Assembly (NCBI GenBank): GCA_022428005.1
Contig: JAKMDI010000014.1
Location: 1 to 64,000 of the forward strand
Reading direction: 5' to 3'
DNA length: 64,000 nt
From: Flavobacteriaceae bacterium
GTDB taxonomy: Bacteria; Bacteroidota; Bacteroidia; Flavobacteriales; Flavobacteriaceae
Part shown: positions 12,518 through 28,606 of the stretch, piece after piece
How positions within the stretch are numbered: the first letter of the stretch is position 1
Layout: every line of letters starts with the position of its first letter
Program-made: the position numbers and the translations under genes
The notes under the pieces: generated by a model
Databases searched by the model: none
What the model saw: the letters and a program-made list of their open reading frames with translations, nothing else
Told to the model about the DNA's origin: nothing

Positions 12518-13600
12518 CTATCCGTTGATTACTCTTTCTTGGTGATTGATTGATTCTTGGTGAATCGCTTTGAACACTCTTGTGATGAAATCCTCACTCA
12601 GTGACCTCTGATTGCCCTCCGCCTTCATAGTGTCTAAAATCTCATTCCATCTTTTGTTTTGAAGAACAGCGACATTATTATCCTTTTTTAGCTGGCCAAT
12701 AGACTCCGCAATTTTCATGCGTTTTCCCAATGCATCCAAAATTCCTTGATCACAAACATCAATTTGCTCTCTTAAAGTTTCCATTTCCGTTTGGTATCCT
12801 TTTTCATCAGTAGTCTTTTTTCGGATTTTCAGATCATTCATGATTTCCACCAAACGGGCAGGTGTCACCTGCTGCTTGGCATCACTCCATGCGTTGTCAG
12901 GATCCCAATGTGTCTCTATCATCAGGCCATCGAAATTCAAATCCAATGCTCTTTGGCTCAAATCAAAAATAAGGTCTCTGCGCCCTGCTATGTGGGAAGG
13001 ATCACATATTAAAGGAAGGTCTGGAAACTTATTTTGAAACTCTACGGCTATTTGCCACTCAGGATTATTACGGTACTTGGATTTGTCATATGTAGAAAAT
13101 CCTCGGTGAATCACCCCTAATTTTTTTATATCAGCAGTGTAGAGTCTTTCCAGTCCACCCATCCATAGGGCCAAATCTGGGTTTACTGGATTTTTTACCA
13201 ATACAATTTTATCGGTGCCCTGTAATGCATCTGCAATTTCTTGGACAATAAAAGGGCTAACCGTGGACCGAGCACCAATCCACAAAATATCTACATCAGC
13301 CTCTAACGCCAGTTTGACGTGATCTTTATTGGCTACTTCAGTGGAAGTTAAGAGCCCTGTTTCTTCTTTTACCTTTTTGAGCCAGTCCAAACCAATCGCA
13401 CCGACACCCTCGAACATCCCCGGACGGGTTCTCGGTTTCCATATACCAGCCCTATAGACCGTAACGTCCGTATCTTTGAGCTCATGGGCTATTTTTAAAA
13501 CTTGTTCTTCGGTTTCTGCACTACAAGGTCCGGCGATCACCAATGGGTGATCCAATCCGAAATCGTGCAACCAACTACTCATTTCTTTACTATTTTCCAT
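12518..13600 (-). CDS. Bifunctional DAHP synthase / chorismate mutase type II
   Basis: GPCSAET, KPRTRPG, CDPSHIAGRRD DAHP synthase motifs plus C-terminal chorismate mutase domain (REQIDVCDQGILDALGKRMKIAESIGQLK). Confidence 0.95.
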   Translation of the reverse strand: MENSKEMSSWLHDFGLDHPLVIAGPCSAETEEQVLKIAHELKDTDVTVYRAGIWKPRTRPGMFEGVGAIGLDWLKKVKEETGLLTSTEVANKDHVKLALEADVDILWIGARSTVSPFIVQEIADALQGTDKIVLVKNPVNPDLALWMGGLERLYTADIKKLGVIHRGFSTYDKSKYRNNPEWQIAVEFQNKFPDLPLICDPSHIAGRRDLIFDLSQRALDLNFDGLMIETHWDPDNAWSDAKQQVTPARLVEIMNDLKIRKKTTDEKGYQTEMETLREQIDVCDQGILDALGKRMKIAESIGQLKKDNNVAVLQNKRWNEILDTMKAEGNQRSLSEDFITRVFKAIHQESINHQERVING

Positions 13601-14468
13601 TTTCTTTATTGTTAGTGGTTTCTGAAATGCCCTCTAAAATCTGACGAATACCATTGATTTCCAATAGCTGATCGTGTAATTCATCAAATTTTTCGGCTTC
13701 CAAAAGGGTTTTAAAATTATTTAAGTTGTCAATGTATTGAGATAGGGTATCGCTAATATTGTGTTTGTTCTGTTTAAAAATGGGTATCCACATATTGGGT
13801 GAGCTTTTTGCCAATCGGACGGTAGAAGAAAAACCACTACCCGCCATATCAAAAATGGTCGACTGATCTTTCTCCTTTTCCATAACAGTTTTACCCAACA
13901 TATAGGAACTGATATGAGATAAATGTGAGACATAGGTGATGTGCTGATCGTGCTCTACAGGGTCCATCTCCCTTAAATTCATCCCTATTTTCTTGAACCA
14001 ATTTTGGGCCCATTCCAAAAGATCTGGACGGGTTTTATGGGTTTCGCAAAGGATCTGAATTTTGTTGGTAAATAAATCGGGTAGCGCAGCTGCCGGTCCA
14101 GAGTATTCGGTTCCAGCCATAGGATGGGTTGCCAAAAACTGCCCTCTCTTAGAGTGCAGTGCCACCGCTTCACAAATCGCTGCTTTGGTCGAGCCAAAAT
14201 CCATTATCAATGCATTATCATTGATTTCATCCAGCAGATCAGAAAGCCGACTCAAAGCAGTATCCACTGGAATAGAGAGGAGTATCACATCCATTTGTTT
14301 GATCATTTTTTGCTCGAGTGGTTGATCGATTAATCCCAAGTCGATTGACTTCCTCAGGTTGGCAGCACTCCTATTGCTCCCATACAGTTCAACGTCGGGA
14401 ATGTGTTCCCGAGCCGACAACGCCAGTGAACCACCAATTAAACCAACTCCTATGACCCCTATTTTCAT
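13590..14468 (-). CDS. tyrA: Prephenate dehydrogenase
   Basis: GVIGVGLIGGSLAL, HPMAGTEYSGP, HLSHISSYML. Confidence 0.95.
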   Translation of the reverse strand: MKIGVIGVGLIGGSLALSAREHIPDVELYGSNRSAANLRKSIDLGLIDQPLEQKMIKQMDVILLSIPVDTALSRLSDLLDEINDNALIMDFGSTKAAICEAVALHSKRGQFLATHPMAGTEYSGPAAALPDLFTNKIQILCETHKTRPDLLEWAQNWFKKIGMNLREMDPVEHDQHITYVSHLSHISSYMLGKTVMEKEKDQSTIFDMAGSGFSSTVRLAKSSPNMWIPIFKQNKHNISDTLSQYIDNLNNFKTLLEAEKFDELHDQLLEINGIRQILEGISETTNNKENGK

Positions 14469-15613
14469 TTTTTTGAAATTCTTTCTATTGCTTTACTAAT
14501 TTGTGTTGCATCGACACAAAGAGAAAAACGGATGTATCCCTCCCCCTGGGTCCCAAAAATACTACCTGGTGTTATAAAGACATGGTGTTTATGTAAAATT
14601 TCGTCGATGAATTCTACTGCGGTTTTTTGGGTATCTCTTAGTTTGGCCCAAACAAACAACCCACAGCTATTCTGGTCAAAATCGGTGTCCAAAAGTGCTG
14701 CCAAATCAAAAACCAACTTTCTCCTTTCAAGGTAGACCTCATTGAGTTGTTGAAACCATTTTTTTTGGGCATTAAGGGCTGCAATAGCCCCCTTTTGAAT
14801 TCCAAAAAACATTCCAGAATCCATATTGCTTTTGACTTTCAGTACGGCACTAATATTGTCTTTGTTTCCCAAAACCATTCCCACCCTCCAACCTGCCATA
14901 TTGAATGACTTACTCAAAGAGTTTAGCTCCATGGCGACGTCCATAGCTCCTGGAACTGACAAAATACTTTGGGGCTTGTCGGTCAATACAAAACTGTAAG
15001 GGTTATCATTGATTAACAAAATTCCTTTTTCTCTGGCCCATGAGATCAATTTCGAAAAAGTAGTTGCATCAGCATTGGCACCAGTAGGCATATGAGGATA
15101 ATTAATCCACATAATTTTTACCCCCACTAAGTCCATCTGATCTAAACTCTCAAGATCGGGTTGCCAGTTATTGGTCGCTGATAAATCATAGAAAATGGGC
15201 GTTGCCTCCAATAATTTTGTTACCGACTCGTAGGTGGGATAGCCTGGGTTGGGAATCAACACTTTATCTCCAGGATTTAAAAAAGCCATTGAGATGTGCA
15301 TGATTCCTTCTTTGGACCCCATCAAAGGAAGTATTTCCGAGCTGGGATCCGCTGTTACCTGATAGTGTTTTAAATAAAAATCTGCAATCGCAGATCGTAA
15401 CTCTGGAAGCCCTTGATAACTTTGATACTGGTGGACTTTGGGATGATTAAAACTATCTTTTAAAGCATTGACAACTTCCGGATGGGCCGGTAAATCGGGA
15501 CTACCAATCCCCATGTTGATGACCGGTTTTCCTGCTGCCACCATCGCCGCTACTTCTCTTAGTTTTTTTGAGAAGTAGTACTCCTGAACTGAATTGAGTC
15601 TTCGTGCTGTCAT
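14465..15613 (-). CDS. Class I/II aminotransferase, likely aromatic operon transaminase
   Basis: NMGIGSPDLPAHPEV, GSKEGIMHI, NPGYPTYES, NSLSKSFNMAGWRVGM; within the Phe/Tyr operon. Confidence 0.92.
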   Translation of the reverse strand: MTARRLNSVQEYYFSKKLREVAAMVAAGKPVINMGIGSPDLPAHPEVVNALKDSFNHPKVHQYQSYQGLPELRSAIADFYLKHYQVTADPSSEILPLMGSKEGIMHISMAFLNPGDKVLIPNPGYPTYESVTKLLEATPIFYDLSATNNWQPDLESLDQMDLVGVKIMWINYPHMPTGANADATTFSKLISWAREKGILLINDNPYSFVLTDKPQSILSVPGAMDVAMELNSLSKSFNMAGWRVGMVLGNKDNISAVLKVKSNMDSGMFFGIQKGAIAALNAQKKWFQQLNEVYLERRKLVFDLAALLDTDFDQNSCGLFVWAKLRDTQKTAVEFIDEILHKHHVFITPGSIFGTQGEGYIRFSLCVDATQISKAIERISKK

Positions 15614-16434
15614 AATTTTCCTGCTGGGTATTCGCCTAAAACTTTAAATGAGGCGGCCATAATCTCTAACAGTGATTTGGCTTTTTGGTAATCTGAAAGG
15701 GCGTCAAAGGTAACATCCACAAAAAAAGCATACTTCCCTGGAGTCTCAATCACTGGCAGGGATTGTATTTTGGTCAAGTTTAAGTTACAGTCACTAACCA
15801 CGTTGAGTGCGGTGGCCAAACTGCCTCTTTTGTGGTCCAAAACAAATTTCCATGCGGCCTTATTGACCTTGTTTTTTTTGTCTTCTTCTTTCTTCTGAAG
15901 AATGATGAACCGTGTAACATTGTTTTTTATGGTCTGAATTGAAGGATTTAAAATTTCCAGACCATATATCTCTGCTGCCCTAACACTGGCAATGGCAGCT
16001 TTGGACGTCCATTTTTGCGCACCGATTTTGTATGCCTCTTCTGCTGTGTCATGACTCTCCACCAGCTTGATTTGGGGGTGTTTTCTGAAGAATTTCTTAC
16101 ATTGTAAAAGAGCCATTGGATGAGAATGCACCTCCTCTATCTCTTGAATCTTTTGACCTGGCAATGCCATTAGGTTGTGTTCTATCCTCAGAAAATGTTC
16201 TCCTGTGATAACCAATTCGTATTGATCCAAGAGTGCATAATTGGGCAGAATGGATCCTGCGATAGAATTTTCTATTGCCATTACGCCAAGATCGCATTTT
16301 CCCGAATCAATTGATTGAGCTAGTTCATCAAAAGTAGAGCACTCTAACCGTTCTGGTGGGACAGAGAAGTACTGTTCCACAACCTGGTCGTGAAATGATC
16401 CTTTTATTCCTTGTATGGCTACTTTTTTAGGCAT
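15610..16434 (-). CDS. pheA: Prephenate dehydratase with C-terminal ACT domain
   Basis: AIENSIAGSI, HSHPMALLQCKKF, NNVTRFIIL; ACT domain (GSLATALNVVSDCNLNLTKIQSLPVIETPGKYAFFVDV). Confidence 0.95.
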   Translation of the reverse strand: MPKKVAIQGIKGSFHDQVVEQYFSVPPERLECSTFDELAQSIDSGKCDLGVMAIENSIAGSILPNYALLDQYELVITGEHFLRIEHNLMALPGQKIQEIEEVHSHPMALLQCKKFFRKHPQIKLVESHDTAEEAYKIGAQKWTSKAAIASVRAAEIYGLEILNPSIQTIKNNVTRFIILQKKEEDKKNKVNKAAWKFVLDHKRGSLATALNVVSDCNLNLTKIQSLPVIETPGKYAFFVDVTFDALSDYQKAKSLLEIMAASFKVLGEYPAGKL

Positions 16435-16439
16435 CGCTC

Positions 16440-16469
16440 AAAAAAAAAGTCCCGATAAATCAGGACTTT
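16440..16469 (-). terminator. Intrinsic terminator of the pheA attenuator
   Basis: Minus strand AAAGTCCTGA-TTTA-TCGGGACTTT followed by a T tract: 10-bp stem with one G.U, 4-nt loop, located between leader peptide and pheA. Confidence 0.88.
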
Positions 16470-16505
16470 AAGTTTATACAAAATATTGTGTTACTACAAA
16501 GTCCT
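16463..16505 (-). promoter_or_regulatory. Antiterminator pairing of the pheA attenuator
   Basis: AGGACTTT (16505-16498, end of leader ORF) is complementary over 8 bp to AAAGTCCT (16469-16462), the 5' arm of the terminator. Confidence 0.8.
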
Positions 16506-16559
16506 TCTATCCGTTGAATAGAAGTAGAAGTAAACGTTGTAATAGCTGTTATTGTTCAT
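16494..16559 (-). CDS. pheL: Phe/Tyr-rich leader peptide MNNNSYYNVYFYFYSTDRRTL*
   Basis: Translated codon by codon; YYNVYFYFY block (7 aromatics in 9 residues), followed by an attenuator and pheA; too short for the ORF track. Confidence 0.9.
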   Translation of the reverse strand: MNNNSYYNVYFYFYSTDRRTL

Positions 16560-16575
16560 TTTTATAATAATGGCA

Positions 16576-16606
16576 CAAATGTATAATAGCTTTTTACAAA
16601 AACAAA
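16576..16606 (-). promoter_or_regulatory. Bacteroidota-type promoter for the aromatic operon
   Basis: Minus strand TTTG (16606-16603)-N19-TACATTTG (16583-16576), matching TTTG/TAnnTTTG. Confidence 0.75.
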
Positions 16607-17858: not shown

Positions 17859-18758
17859 TTGAGCATTCGTATCCAAAATATCAGTAAAAGCTATGGTAGT
17901 ACACTTGCCTTAAATAAGGTTTCGCTGAGCTTTAATCATAGGGGGGTTATTGGTCTTTTGGGACCCAACGGGGCTGGGAAAACAACCCTCATGAAAATAC
18001 TTACTGGCTACTTAAGCCAGTGGGAAGGAACAATACATGTTGGTGATGCTGATTTAAAGCTCGCTTCAAAAAAGATCCAGCGGCAGGTGGGCTATCTACC
18101 TGAAAATAATCCGTTGTACCCAGAGATGTATGTAAGAGAATACCTGAGTTATGTTGGAGATCTGTATGCCTTAAAAAAAGCACCCATAGACCAAGTCATT
18201 GAGAGAACTGGACTCAAGAATCACGCACATAAAAAAATTGAGTTTTTGTCCAAAGGCTACCGTCAAAGGGTTGGTTTGGCTGCTGCACTGATCCACGATC
18301 CTCAATATATCATTCTCGATGAGCCTACAACGGGACTCGACCCCAACCAAGTGATAGAAATCAGAAAGTTAATACAGACTTTGGGAAAGGAAAAGTTGGT
18401 TTTACTTTCCACTCACATCTTGCAAGAAGTTGAAGCCGTAGCCGACCAAGTGGTTATCCTCAATCGTGGAAGTGTGGTTTTAAATGAAGCCGTTGAGGCT
18501 CTTAAAAAAGACGACGAACAGGTGGTCGCCGTAAGTTTTGATTATCGTGTTGAAAGTGTTGCCCTACAAAAAATCCCCTTTGTGAAAACGGTGGTAAACA
18601 CCTCAAACTTTGACTATGAATTGACTTTTGATCAAGATAAAGACATGCGCCCAGCTGTTTTTGATTTTGCCCACGATAATGGTCTAAAAATTTTATCTCT
18701 TCAGCAAAAAATAAAAGGCTTAGAAAAAAGATTCAACTCCCTTACCCAAAGGGATTAA
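17859..18758 (+). CDS. gldA: ABC transporter ATP-binding protein, gliding motility GldA-like (TTG start)
   Basis: Walker A GPNGAGKTT, signature LSKGYRQRVGLA, Walker B YIILDEPTTGLDP; overall similarity to flavobacterial GldA. Confidence 0.88.
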   Translation: MSIRIQNISKSYGSTLALNKVSLSFNHRGVIGLLGPNGAGKTTLMKILTGYLSQWEGTIHVGDADLKLASKKIQRQVGYLPENNPLYPEMYVREYLSYVGDLYALKKAPIDQVIERTGLKNHAHKKIEFLSKGYRQRVGLAAALIHDPQYIILDEPTTGLDPNQVIEIRKLIQTLGKEKLVLLSTHILQEVEAVADQVVILNRGSVVLNEAVEALKKDDEQVVAVSFDYRVESVALQKIPFVKTVVNTSNFDYELTFDQDKDMRPAVFDFAHDNGLKILSLQQKIKGLEKRFNSLTQRD

Positions 18759-19711
18759 AACAATGCTTGGGCAATTTTTTTTACGTTTTTAGATTTTCCC
18801 ATGCTGTAGTAGTGCAGGAAGGGCACTCCATGTTTCTTTAGTTCTTTGCTCTGCTCGATACACCATTCGATACCTATTTCAGAAACCGCCGAATTATCGC
18901 TCGCTTTTTGGATCTCATTGATTAATTCCTGGGGCAAATCTACATGAAAACGATGGGGAATTAAATTCAATTGCTTCAAGGTCGCCATGGGTTTTAGTCC
19001 GGGTATAATGGGAACATCAATTCCAGCCTCTCTGCATTTTTTTTTAAACTCAAAAAACTTTTGATTATCAAAAAACATTTGAGTGATGATATAATCTGAT
19101 CCTGCTTTAATTTTTTCCTTTAGAAACTGTATATCACTTTCTAAACTCGGTGCCTCCGCATGCTTTTCAGGATACCCAGCCACACCGACACAAAAATCGG
19201 TTGGAGTAGAGTTCAGTAGTTCTTCATCTAAGTATTGTCCTTGATTGAGGTTGTTGATTTGAACCACCAAATCCTTTGCATAGGTATGTCCCCCTTTATT
19301 AGGGTTAAAATAAGTTTCGGATTTAACAGCATCACCCCTAAGGGCAACCAAATTCTCAATACCTAAAAAATCTAAATCGATTAAAAAGTTTTCAGTATCC
19401 TCCTGGGTAAATCCTCCGCATAGAATATGAGGGATTGCGTCTACCTGATAGCGGTTTTGAATGGCAGCACAAATCCCAACTGTTCCCGGACGCTTGCGGA
19501 TAACCTTTTTCTCCAAAAGCCCTTTTTCACGTTCGATATAATTATACTCCTCCCGGTGATAGGTTACATCAATAAAGGGTGGATTAAACTCCATCAAAGG
19601 ATCAATAGCATCAAAAATTGATTGAATGTCTTGCCCTTTTAATGGTGGTAAGATTTCAAAAGTAAACTGAGTTTTACCCTTTGCCTTTTTTATGTGATCT
19701 GTTACTTTCAT
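18755..19711 (-). CDS. metF: 5,10-methylenetetrahydrofolate reductase
   Basis: FEILPPLKG, ALRGD, YIITQMFFDNQKFFEF; end of met operon. Confidence 0.95.
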   Translation of the reverse strand: MKVTDHIKKAKGKTQFTFEILPPLKGQDIQSIFDAIDPLMEFNPPFIDVTYHREEYNYIEREKGLLEKKVIRKRPGTVGICAAIQNRYQVDAIPHILCGGFTQEDTENFLIDLDFLGIENLVALRGDAVKSETYFNPNKGGHTYAKDLVVQINNLNQGQYLDEELLNSTPTDFCVGVAGYPEKHAEAPSLESDIQFLKEKIKAGSDYIITQMFFDNQKFFEFKKKCREAGIDVPIIPGLKPMATLKQLNLIPHRFHVDLPQELINEIQKASDNSAVSEIGIEWCIEQSKELKKHGVPFLHYYSMGKSKNVKKIAQALF

Positions 19712-19715
19712 AAGC

Positions 19716-22394
19716 TTATGTTAAATTGGGACTGAGCCATTTTCGCGCTTTTTCAAGGTTTATATTTCTTCTTTTACTGTAATCTATTAATTGATCTTCT
19801 TTGATTTTACCCAACCCAAAATATTTTGCCTCAGGATGCGCAAAATAATAACCTGAAACAGACGAAGCAGGCCACATAGCATAACTCTCGGTCAAACGGA
19901 CTCCTATTGTCTTTTCAACCTCCATCAGTTCCCAAAGCGTTTGTTTTTCAAGATGATCTGGACAGGCAGGGTAGCCTGGGGCTGGACGAATCCCTTTGTA
20001 TATTTCTCTGATCAGTTCTTCGTTTGTAAATTGTTCTTTGGGTGAATATCCCCAGTGCTGCGTTCTTACTTCCCGATGGAGAAACTCTGCAAAGGCCTCT
20101 GCCAAGCGGTCGGCCAATGCTTTTATCATTATACTTTGATAATCATCGTTTTGATTTTCATAGCGCTGCGCAATTTCCTCCACCCCAATGCCGGTAGTAA
20201 CGCAAAAAGATCCCATGTAATCTCTAAATCCAAAAGATTCAGGAGCAATAAAATCAGACAAAGCAATATTGGGTTGGCCCGCTCTTTTTTCGAGCTGTTG
20301 TCTCAAAGTAATAAAACGATAGCTTTCACGCTCATGATTGTTGGGATCAAAAACCAGAATATCGTCGCCTTTACTATTGACTGGAAAAAGACCAAAACGC
20401 GCTTTTGCTGTCAACCATCTTTCATCAATGATTTTTCTGAGCATGTTTTGCGCATCAATAAACAAAGAAGTGGCTTCCTGACCTACAACCTCATCATTTA
20501 AAATCTCTGGATACTTTCCGTGTAGATCCCAAGATCTAAAAAAAGGCGTCCAATCGATATAAGAAACCAATTGCTTAAAGTCTTGATTTTCAATGGTCTT
20601 AAACCCTAAAAAACTTGGAGTTACCGGTTTGTAATTTTCCCAGTCTATACTGTATTTTCTTTCTCTTGCTGTTTTTATATCCACATAGGACTTAGAAGAG
20701 GAACGTTCCAAAAACTTTTCACGAAAAGAATGGTATTCCGCTGCGATTTCCTCAGTGTAGGTTTTGCTGATGTCTTCGCTGAGTAACTTGTTCGCAACTG
20801 TAACCGCCCTTGAGGCATCATTTACGTGGATAACTGCAGCATTCCCTTGCGGTGCTATCTTAACCGCAGTATGGGCCTTTGAGGTGGTAGCCCCTCCTAT
20901 GAGAAGGGGTATTTTAATTCCCAATCGGTTCATTTCCTTAGCCACATGAACCATTTCGTCCAAGGAAGGAGTGATGAGTCCCGATAGGCCAATGATATCA
21001 ACATTTTCCTCTTTTGCTTTTTCTAAAATTAATTCGGGGGGGACCATTACCCCAAGGTCAATTATTTCAAAATTATTGCAGGACAACACCACACTGACGA
21101 TGTTTTTCCCAATATCGTGAACGTCCCCTTTCACAGTAGCCATCAATATTTTTCCAGCAGTTTGAATTTTACCTTCCTTTTCAGCCTCTATAAACGGTTG
21201 CAAATAGGCTACAGCCTTTTTCATTACCCGGGCAGATTTGACCACCTGAGGTAAAAACATTTTTCCAGATCCAAAAAGGTCACCCACTACATTCATTCCC
21301 GTCATCAGCTCATTTTCAATCACTCTGAGCGGACGGTCGGCAGCTTTACGCGCGGTCTCTACGTCCTCGATAATAAATTGATCAATTCCTTTTACCAAGG
21401 CATGTGTGATCCTTTTTTGGAGATCTTGTTTTCTCCAGGCGTGATCCTCTTCCTTGATTTTTTTCTTTGTCCCTTTTATGGATTCCGCGTACTCTAACAA
21501 GTTTTCTGTCGCATCCTCTTTTCGGTTCAGTAATACATCTTCTACCTTTTCAAGTAAAGGTTTTGGTATCTCGTCATATACTTCAAGGAGCGTCGGGTTT
21601 ACTATTCCCATATCCATTCCATGTTGAATGGCATGGTACAAAAAGGCAGAATGCATGGCCTCCCTGACGGTATTATTTCCACGAAAAGAAAATGAAACAT
21701 TACTCACTCCACCACTCACATTTGCATAGGGTAAGTGCTCTCTTATCCACTGGGTAGCCTTAAAGAAATCTAACGCATTACTTCTGTGTTCTTCCATCCC
21801 GGTAGCGACAGGAAAAATATTGGGGTCAAAAATAATATCCTCTGGAGGAAAACCAACCTGGTCCACCAAGATGCGATAGGACCTTTCACAGATTTGAATT
21901 CTCCTGTCCAAATTATCAGCTTGTCCCGATTCGTCGAAAGCCATTACTACAACAGCAGCACCATAAAATTTTATTTTTTGTGCTTGTTCAACAAAAGTGG
22001 ATTCGCCCTCCTTTAGGCTGATGGAATTGACCACTCCTTTTCCTTGGATTACTTTGAGTCCTGCTTCAATAATTTCCCACTTGGAACTGTCGATCATCAC
22101 AGGTACTCTGGCAATATCGGGCTCCGCAGCAATAAGGTTCAAAAATTGAACCATGGCCGCTTTGCCATCGATCATGCCTTCATCCATGTTGACATCAATT
22201 ATTTGAGCTCCGCCGTTTACCTGATCTGCAGCCACTGCTACTGCAGCCTCAAAATCTCCTTCTTCTATAAGCCGCAAAAATTTTCTTGAACCTGTTACAT
22301 TAGTTCTTTCACCAATATTTACAAAATTGGATTCTGGACTCACAATCAGTGGTTCAAGACCAGAAAGAGTAAGATATCGTTTAGGGTTATACAT
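19716..22394 (-). CDS. metH: Methionine synthase C-terminal part (pterin-binding, cobalamin-binding, activation domains)
   Basis: [56 protein letters not shown]; start taken as the internal Met MYNPKRYL. Confidence 0.94.
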
Positions 22395-23388
22395 GACTGG
22401 GGATATTAATTTTTCTTGGGCTTGCCTGCTCAGCAATTTTTGCAATGAGACGAATGTGATCTGGGGTAGTGCCACAGCAACCACCAACAATATTAATTAG
22501 ATTTTGATCCAAAAAAGGTTTGATCAGTGCTGCCATCTCTTGTGGACTCTGGTCATACTCACCAAATGCATTGGGCAATCCAGCATTGGGGTGAACGGAG
22601 GTATAAAAATTAGAGAATTTGGCCATTCTTTCTACATAGGGGTGTAATTGACCTGCCCCTAAGGCACAATTAAAACCAATACTCATCAAAGGCATATGGG
22701 AGAGGGATATGGCAAAAGCTTCTACTGTTTGCCCTGATAGTGTCCTTCCACTATTGTCCGTTATGGTGCCACTGACCATAACGGGTATTGATATTTTATG
22801 CGTTAAAAAATGTTGCTGAATGGCACCAAGGGCTGCCTTTGCGTTTAAAGTATCGAAAATAGTTTCTACCAAAAGCACATCGACGCCACCGGCTATTAAG
22901 CCTGACACTTGTTCTTGATAAGCATCGGACAAGGCATCAAAATCGACAGCGCGAAACCCAGGGTCTTTAACGTCTGGGGACATACTGGCTGTTTTATTGG
23001 TAGGTCCTATAGCCCCTGCGACAAAACGCGGCTTATTGGGATCTAGTGTGGTGATTTTTTTAGCGGCTTCTTTTGCGATCCTCGCGGACTCAAAGTTGAG
23101 CTCGTAGGCCAAATCCTCCATTTGATAATCTGCCATCGCAATCGAGGTGGCAGAAAAGGTATTGGTTTCAATAATGTCTGCCCCTGCCATGAGATACTGT
23201 TCATGAATTTTTTGTATCGCGGCCGCTTGTGTAAGTGATAACAGATCATTGTTGCCCCCCAAGGGACAAGGGTGGTCCTTGAAACGTTCCCCACGAAAAT
23301 CTTCTTCGTTGAAATCGAGCTTTTGAAGCATGGTTCCCATTGCACCGTCCAAGACCAGTACCCTATTTTTTAGAATAGTTTCAATCAT
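22387..23388 (-). CDS. metH: Homocysteine S-methyltransferase (methionine synthase N-terminal part)
   Basis: [34 protein letters not shown]. Confidence 0.94.
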
Positions 23389-28499: not shown

Positions 28500-28548
28500 T
28501 GTTGCTTTATTTTTGGGGGGATCTGACAAGATATGTCTTAAAGCAACA
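28500..28548 (-). promoter_or_regulatory. Putative riboswitch expression platform hairpin at the metK start codon
   Basis: Perfect 10-bp inverted repeat TGTTGCTTTA (28548-28539) / TAAAGCAACA (28509-28500), 1 nt from the metK ATG. Confidence 0.75.
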
Positions 28549-28600
28549 CTGCTTTAGCATTTTTTTAAGAGGTTGCAATCAGTCAAATCCTTCCTCGTTA
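28545..28600 (-). ncRNA. SAM-II riboswitch aptamer upstream of metK
   Basis: AACGAGGAAGGATTTGACTGATTGCAACCTCTTAAAAAAATGCTAAAGCAGTG; P1 GAGG/CCTC, conserved GATTTgaC..ATTGCAA and GCTAAA, pseudoknot ACTG/CAGT; matches the SAM-II layout (GAUUUAACCGUAUUGCAA...GCUAAA). Confidence 0.9.
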
Positions 28601-28606
28601 CAGTTG

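Follow-up and report, generated by a model that had tools for sequence, protein, structure and literature searches.

A probable phenylalanine/tyrosine leader-peptide attenuator upstream of pheA in a Flavobacteriaceae genome and its counterparts in other Bacteroidia

In this work we analysed a stretch of 64,000 nucleotides from a Flavobacteriaceae bacterium, referred to here as the window, and describe an element upstream of pheA which is very probably (we would put it at about 93%) a ribosome-mediated transcription attenuator controlling readthrough into pheA, an aminotransferase gene, tyrA and a DAHP synthase-chorismate mutase (DAHPS) gene. A preliminary description of the sequence had proposed a Phe/Tyr leader-peptide attenuator at this position, and the comparative evidence strongly supports that core reading. 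The promoter, leader, pairing segments and terminator named there were all recovered at their minus-strand coordinates, base for base (Table 1). As judged from sequence and predicted folding, the element is a canonical protector/antiterminator/terminator attenuator with the control codons placed within the protector hairpin.

Table 1. Features of the pheA attenuator region and the genes behind it, in window coordinates.
Feature	Position	Strand	Basis or remark
Putative -33 element TTTG, Bacteroidetes sigma-A type promoter	16603..16606	-	sequence; kept in same-genus loci
Putative -7 element TACATTTG	16576..16583	-	sequence; matches consensus TAnnTTTG
Predicted leader peptide ORF MNNNSYYNVYFYFYSTDRRTL	16494..16559	-	ATG 16559 to TAG 16494; 148 unique leaders share the aromatic run
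Control codons TAT TAC (AAC GTT) TAC TTC TAC TTC TAT	16518..16544	-	sequence; stretch also contains the protector 5' arm
Protector 5' arm TATTACAA	16537..16544	-	fold; pairs with TTGTAGTA
Segment 1, antiterminator 5' arm AGGACTTTG	16497..16505	-	final leader codons
Protector 3' arm TTGTAGTA	16492..16499	-	fold; ORF end and stop codon
Segment 2, shared arm TAAAGTCCTG	16461..16470	-	serves both antiterminator (3' arm) and terminator (5' arm)
Intrinsic terminator hairpin	16446..16469	-	10 bp, loop TTTA, -11.7 kcal/mol
Terminator T tract	16440..16445	-	sequence
pheA, prephenate dehydratase	15610..16434	-	ATG at 16434
PLP aminotransferase (LL-DAP/aspartate aminotransferase-like)	14465..15613	-	4-nt overlap with pheA
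tyrA, prephenate dehydrogenase	13590..14468	-	
DAHP synthase-chorismate mutase fusion	12518..13600	-	

The two putative promoter elements are separated by a gap of 19 nt. A study of F. psychrophilum places the consensus TAnnTTTG at -12 to -5 (PMC9723704). Among the leaders collected here, the pattern TTG-N17-22-TAnnTTTG lies upstream of 50 of 147, vs 1 of 145 at a position shifted by 60 nt. We infer promoter activity at the pheA leader, with a transcription start at about 16571. The leader ORF has 21 codons, seven of them aromatic (five Tyr and two Phe), and is presumably translated. A longer in-frame start (MICFC...) in loci L001 and L002 was dropped, as it begins ahead of the promoter -7 box. 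The neighbouring gene upstream (16769, plus strand) is divergent from the leader, so the terminator closes no other listed gene and should sit in the transcript that runs from the leader promoter into pheA. The gene content of the operon is such that it supplies both Phe and Tyr directly, as had been suggested earlier, and also the common aromatic pathway. Of the two matches to PF00793 in the genome, which is 82% complete, one is the window DAHP synthase and the other is KdsA.

The 8-bp pairing of the antiterminator joins AGGACTTT (16505-16498) with AAAGTCCT (16469-16462). An intrinsic terminator lies between the leader and the first gene, pheA; its stem, AAAGTCCTGA-TTTA-TCGGGACTTT, has one G-U pair among the 10 bp and is followed by the T tract. 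When the leader is folded as an untranslated RNA, the Tyr codons of the protector 5' arm pair with the end of the ORF, and the helix extends across segment 1. The order of events would then be as follows. Transcription would begin near 16571 and the leader ORF would be translated at once. With ample charged tRNA-Phe and tRNA-Tyr, the ribosome would reach the stop codon and mask segment 1, leaving segment 2 to pair with segment 3, and transcription would stop before pheA. If either tRNA is uncharged, the ribosome would stall within the aromatic run and cover the protector 5' arm, while segment 1 stays free just past its front edge; segment 1 could then pair with segment 2 and the polymerase would continue into pheA. 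A leader without translation would fold the protector, conceal segment 1 and allow termination. The ribosome stalling and the response of termination to starvation are what the sequence predicts, and the transcription-translation coupling that such an attenuator requires is assumed for Bacteroidota.

This architecture is not easily produced by chance. We used a detector that requires a mini-ORF with at least 30% aromatic residues, a terminator stem of 8 bp or more directly behind it and a strong segment-1 duplex. No match arose among 1500 dinucleotide shuffles of this region, and the pheA leader is the sole match on both strands of the window. The two competing hairpins are of comparable strength, with the antiterminator at -14.0 vs -11.7 kcal/mol for the terminator in the window, and means of -15.8 vs -14.7 kcal/mol. 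For an RNA ending at segment 2, the antiterminator has a probability of 0.99 with a stalled ribosome and 0.00 with a ribosome at the stop codon. For the full RNA at equilibrium the terminator prevails in all cases, including that of the stalled ribosome. Regulation would therefore have to be kinetic, by co-transcriptional folding, which is assumed for all attenuators of this type.

Stem sequences diverge between lineages, and segments 1, 2 and 3 vary together; a joint table shows that segment 1 duplicates segment 3 in every lineage, which indicates a single shared arm with two competing partners. In a swap test on 29 divergent representatives, segments 1 and 2 of the same leader scored 9.29 vs 6.53 when swapped (sd 0.29; the maximum of 2000 permutations was 7.78). 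In the terminator, 7 of the 10 base pairs carry compensatory changes, and pairing reaches 93.6% vs at most 59% in slid controls. The preliminary expectation of covarying and mutually exclusive 1:2 and 2:3 stems is thus borne out. Within the genus of the window the stems scarcely vary, and segment 1:2 is without compensatory change there; the covariation of this pairing stems from comparisons wider than the genus.

These two pairings, the best supported of all, could in principle suffice. The preliminary description proposed a compact three-segment version. With 1:2 competing with 2:3 alone, an untranslated leader would lead to readthrough, and the similar stability of antiterminator and terminator fits such a scheme. 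We consider it improbable, because a fourth element was found. Across 29 lineages the leader's own codons pair with segment 1 and its flank far better than swapped ones (-13.22 vs -8.49 kcal/mol, sd 0.46). Synonymous shuffles give the same direction more weakly (mean z -1.17, negative in 23 of 29), and the leader folds are more stable than shuffled ones with a mean z of -2.83. Inside the genus, 89% of cells in the protector helix are paired, and one column pair of the alignment shows a compensatory exchange (UA in 8, CG in 10) that sets a Tyr codon against the stop codon. With the leader codons forming a protector over segment 1, the untranslated RNA is predicted to terminate rather than to read through.

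The spacing between the codons and the stems also suits the four-element attenuator. In 134 of 148 unique leaders, segment 1 starts 10-15 nt downstream of the base that opens the last aromatic codon. The detector skipped aromatic codons less than 6 nt from segment 1; this imposes a lower bound on the spacing but does not account for its narrow upper limit. Ribosome footprints place the front of the ribosome some 12-13 nt beyond the A site. The spacing thus corresponds to about one ribosome front, as would be needed if a ribosome halted at the final control codon is to leave the antiterminator arm free. The distance between segment 1 and the stop codon ranges from -29 to +9 nt in the 148 unique leaders. 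In leaders with the stop 20-29 nt past the start of segment 1, for example in Flavobacterium, a ribosome bound at the stop would mask segment 1 only partly.

For the distribution of the element we took pheA loci from same-genus relatives, from the order and class, and from named GTDB genomes. Automatic detection picked up the attenuator at 140 of the 145 pheA loci from Flavobacteriaceae, so that the aromatic mini-ORF is kept in relatives, as anticipated. Two of the automatic misses (L150 and L175, the latter with a GTG start) have the attenuator when inspected by eye, and two others (L019 and L103) are a single N-masked genome. In the remaining miss (L133, Gelidibacter) the attenuator has been lost upstream of pheA and repeats of the unit TTATGAGTTCGAAGAACGAAATAAAATGAACTAGTTGAACTAATCCCGCC... 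are found instead. In the genus of the window, leader and terminator are present in all loci with readable upstream DNA, L019 having Ns in the leader. The attenuator is also found in other Flavobacteriales families and in several other Bacteroidia families, with different stem sequences. No such leader was seen at pheA in the checked loci from reduced endosymbiont-like genomes (f17), at the checked pheA loci of family f7, in which pheA is divergent, and of f28 and f31, or at pheA of loci L027 and L080. One locus (L203:1147-1440) has tandem aromatic leaders before pheA, MAYRSAYYFYFFCFFSSCRG and MGYTYYYFFSLMDHRRLWVV, with a separate terminator behind each of them; in the second, GGACCATC pairs with GATGGTCC.

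Over the 148 unique leaders, Phe or Tyr make up 37% of residues. Of the 42 codons that depart from the consensus at aromatic positions of the genus alignment, 26 again encode an aromatic residue, Tyr-Phe exchange included; roughly a quarter would be expected by chance, a rough estimate from the single-base neighbours of TAT or TTT. As to a possible Trp component of the sensor, Trp codons are found in 51 of the 148 leaders and are 1.6% of residues, which is estimated to be near the ordinary proteome frequency; the window's leader has none.

The same genomes carry comparable leaders in front of other amino acid operons. In the genome of the window, hisG (L180:1235-1345, contig C11) is preceded by a His-codon leader, VKKLIHHTHSFLTDQMR, with a GTG start and a terminator AAACCCGTTTGA/TCAAACGGGTTT, and trpE (L182:780-885, contig C21) by a Trp leader, MNFKIELYSWWTN, with a hairpin ACGAAT...ATTCGT and a terminator AAGGCTTGTCG/CGACAGGCCTT. 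Among 30 hisG loci of the order, nearly all are preceded by a His-rich leader, and Trp-Trp leaders lie upstream of trpE in most of 19 loci and in most same-genus trpE loci. Like the pheA leader, they combine a short ORF, a run of cognate codons and a terminator directly ahead of the first gene, but their codons are for His or Trp and their stems are their own. That the codon fits the pathway in three operons argues for codon sensing. Unlike these three, ilvD of the same genome has no clear branched-chain leader peptide in its upstream region (L181:1080-1400).

A different view would take the terminator for a constitutive or sRNA-type 3' end, since intrinsic terminators can give short stable RNAs, and the mini-ORF for an incidental one or for a functional small protein, whose peptide is indeed well conserved inside Flavobacterium. 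This is very unlikely. There is no co-directional gene upstream whose end it could be, and segment 1 and the terminator change together from lineage to lineage. Across families the aromatic codon class is kept and the peptide sequence is not, and the hisG and trpE analogues use matching codons. More unlikely still is that Phe/Tyr act through a ligand-binding riboswitch or a protein-binding attenuator. Riboswitches too can consist of a structured 5' leader and a terminator ahead of biosynthesis genes, but no Rfam 15 family reaches gathering score and the primary sequence of the stems is not kept between families as a binding pocket would be.

The Rfam 15 search, at gathering and relaxed thresholds, gave no usable match for the pheA element. 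Matches to suhB, rimP and rli60 were far under the cut-off and were set aside as probably due to the terminator. Elsewhere in the window, Rfam identifies a SAM-II riboswitch at 28544-28602 on the minus strand (73 bits). By eye, 18755-22490 seemingly encodes a MetH-like methionine synthase and a MetF-like reductase.

In E. coli, the pheA attenuator with its leader peptide PheL belongs to the trp/his/phe class. It shares with the window element a leader with Phe codons, the protector/antiterminator/terminator logic and the position before pheA. The window element differs in having no sequence relation to it, a mixed Tyr/Phe run, a Bacteroidetes promoter, a segment 1 in or beside the end of the leader ORF, and an operon for Phe, Tyr and DAHPS. 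Attenuation of E. coli pheA is listed in PMC1183508. The uORFC-13-1 motif at aroF of Acholeplasma (PMC8632094) is similar in its Phe codon(s) in a uORF, its terminator and its DAHP synthase gene, but differs in phylum, gene and structure. Naville and Gautheret (2010, PMC2965389) knew of demonstrated leader-peptide systems from Proteobacteria and Actinobacteria alone, and added Firmicutes to these.

Closest to our case, Guérin et al. (2021, PMC9723704) report, in their main text, structured 5' elements upstream of pheA and hisG that are conserved in Flavobacteriaceae and have no Rfam hits, and strong clues for leader-peptide attenuation at F. psychrophilum amino acid operons. Their pheA element belongs to the same gene and the same bacterial family as the one in the window; their main text gives for it no leader peptide, pairing, covariation or spread beyond the family. 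The preliminary description left open whether the system had been described: the pheA element and the idea of attenuation had been reported in 2021, while the leader and the pairing are absent from that main text. The window locus is thus a further case of a known attenuator type. To this the present analysis contributes leader sequences, a four-element structure, evidence of covariation, a rule for the spacing and a distribution across the class. Beyond this and a transcriptome paper of 2020, we found nothing on attenuation in Bacteroidetes in the open literature. A 2010 survey by Lopatovskaya et al., cited in PMC4833913, may hold predictions for the phylum.

Our statistics document a probable class-wide attenuation system at pheA in Bacteroidia, where such systems have hardly been described, and more briefly similar candidates at hisG and trpE in Flavobacteriales. 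As a wider and tentative proposal, which we hold to be less probable than not, the attenuator may be vertically inherited throughout Bacteroidia, with stems often replaced by a concerted three-way exchange at fixed spacing, and may serve as a joint sensor of Phe and Tyr, in some lineages also of Trp, for the whole aromatic pathway, the leading ribosome being tightly coupled to the polymerase. Because attenuation needs the first ribosome to match the pace of the polymerase, the element could act as a natural reporter of transcription-translation coupling, and the near-constant spacing of 10-15 nt offers a ready test of the position of the ribosome front. If the proposal is true, tight coupling would hold in a phylum where translation initiation mostly does without Shine-Dalgarno sites.
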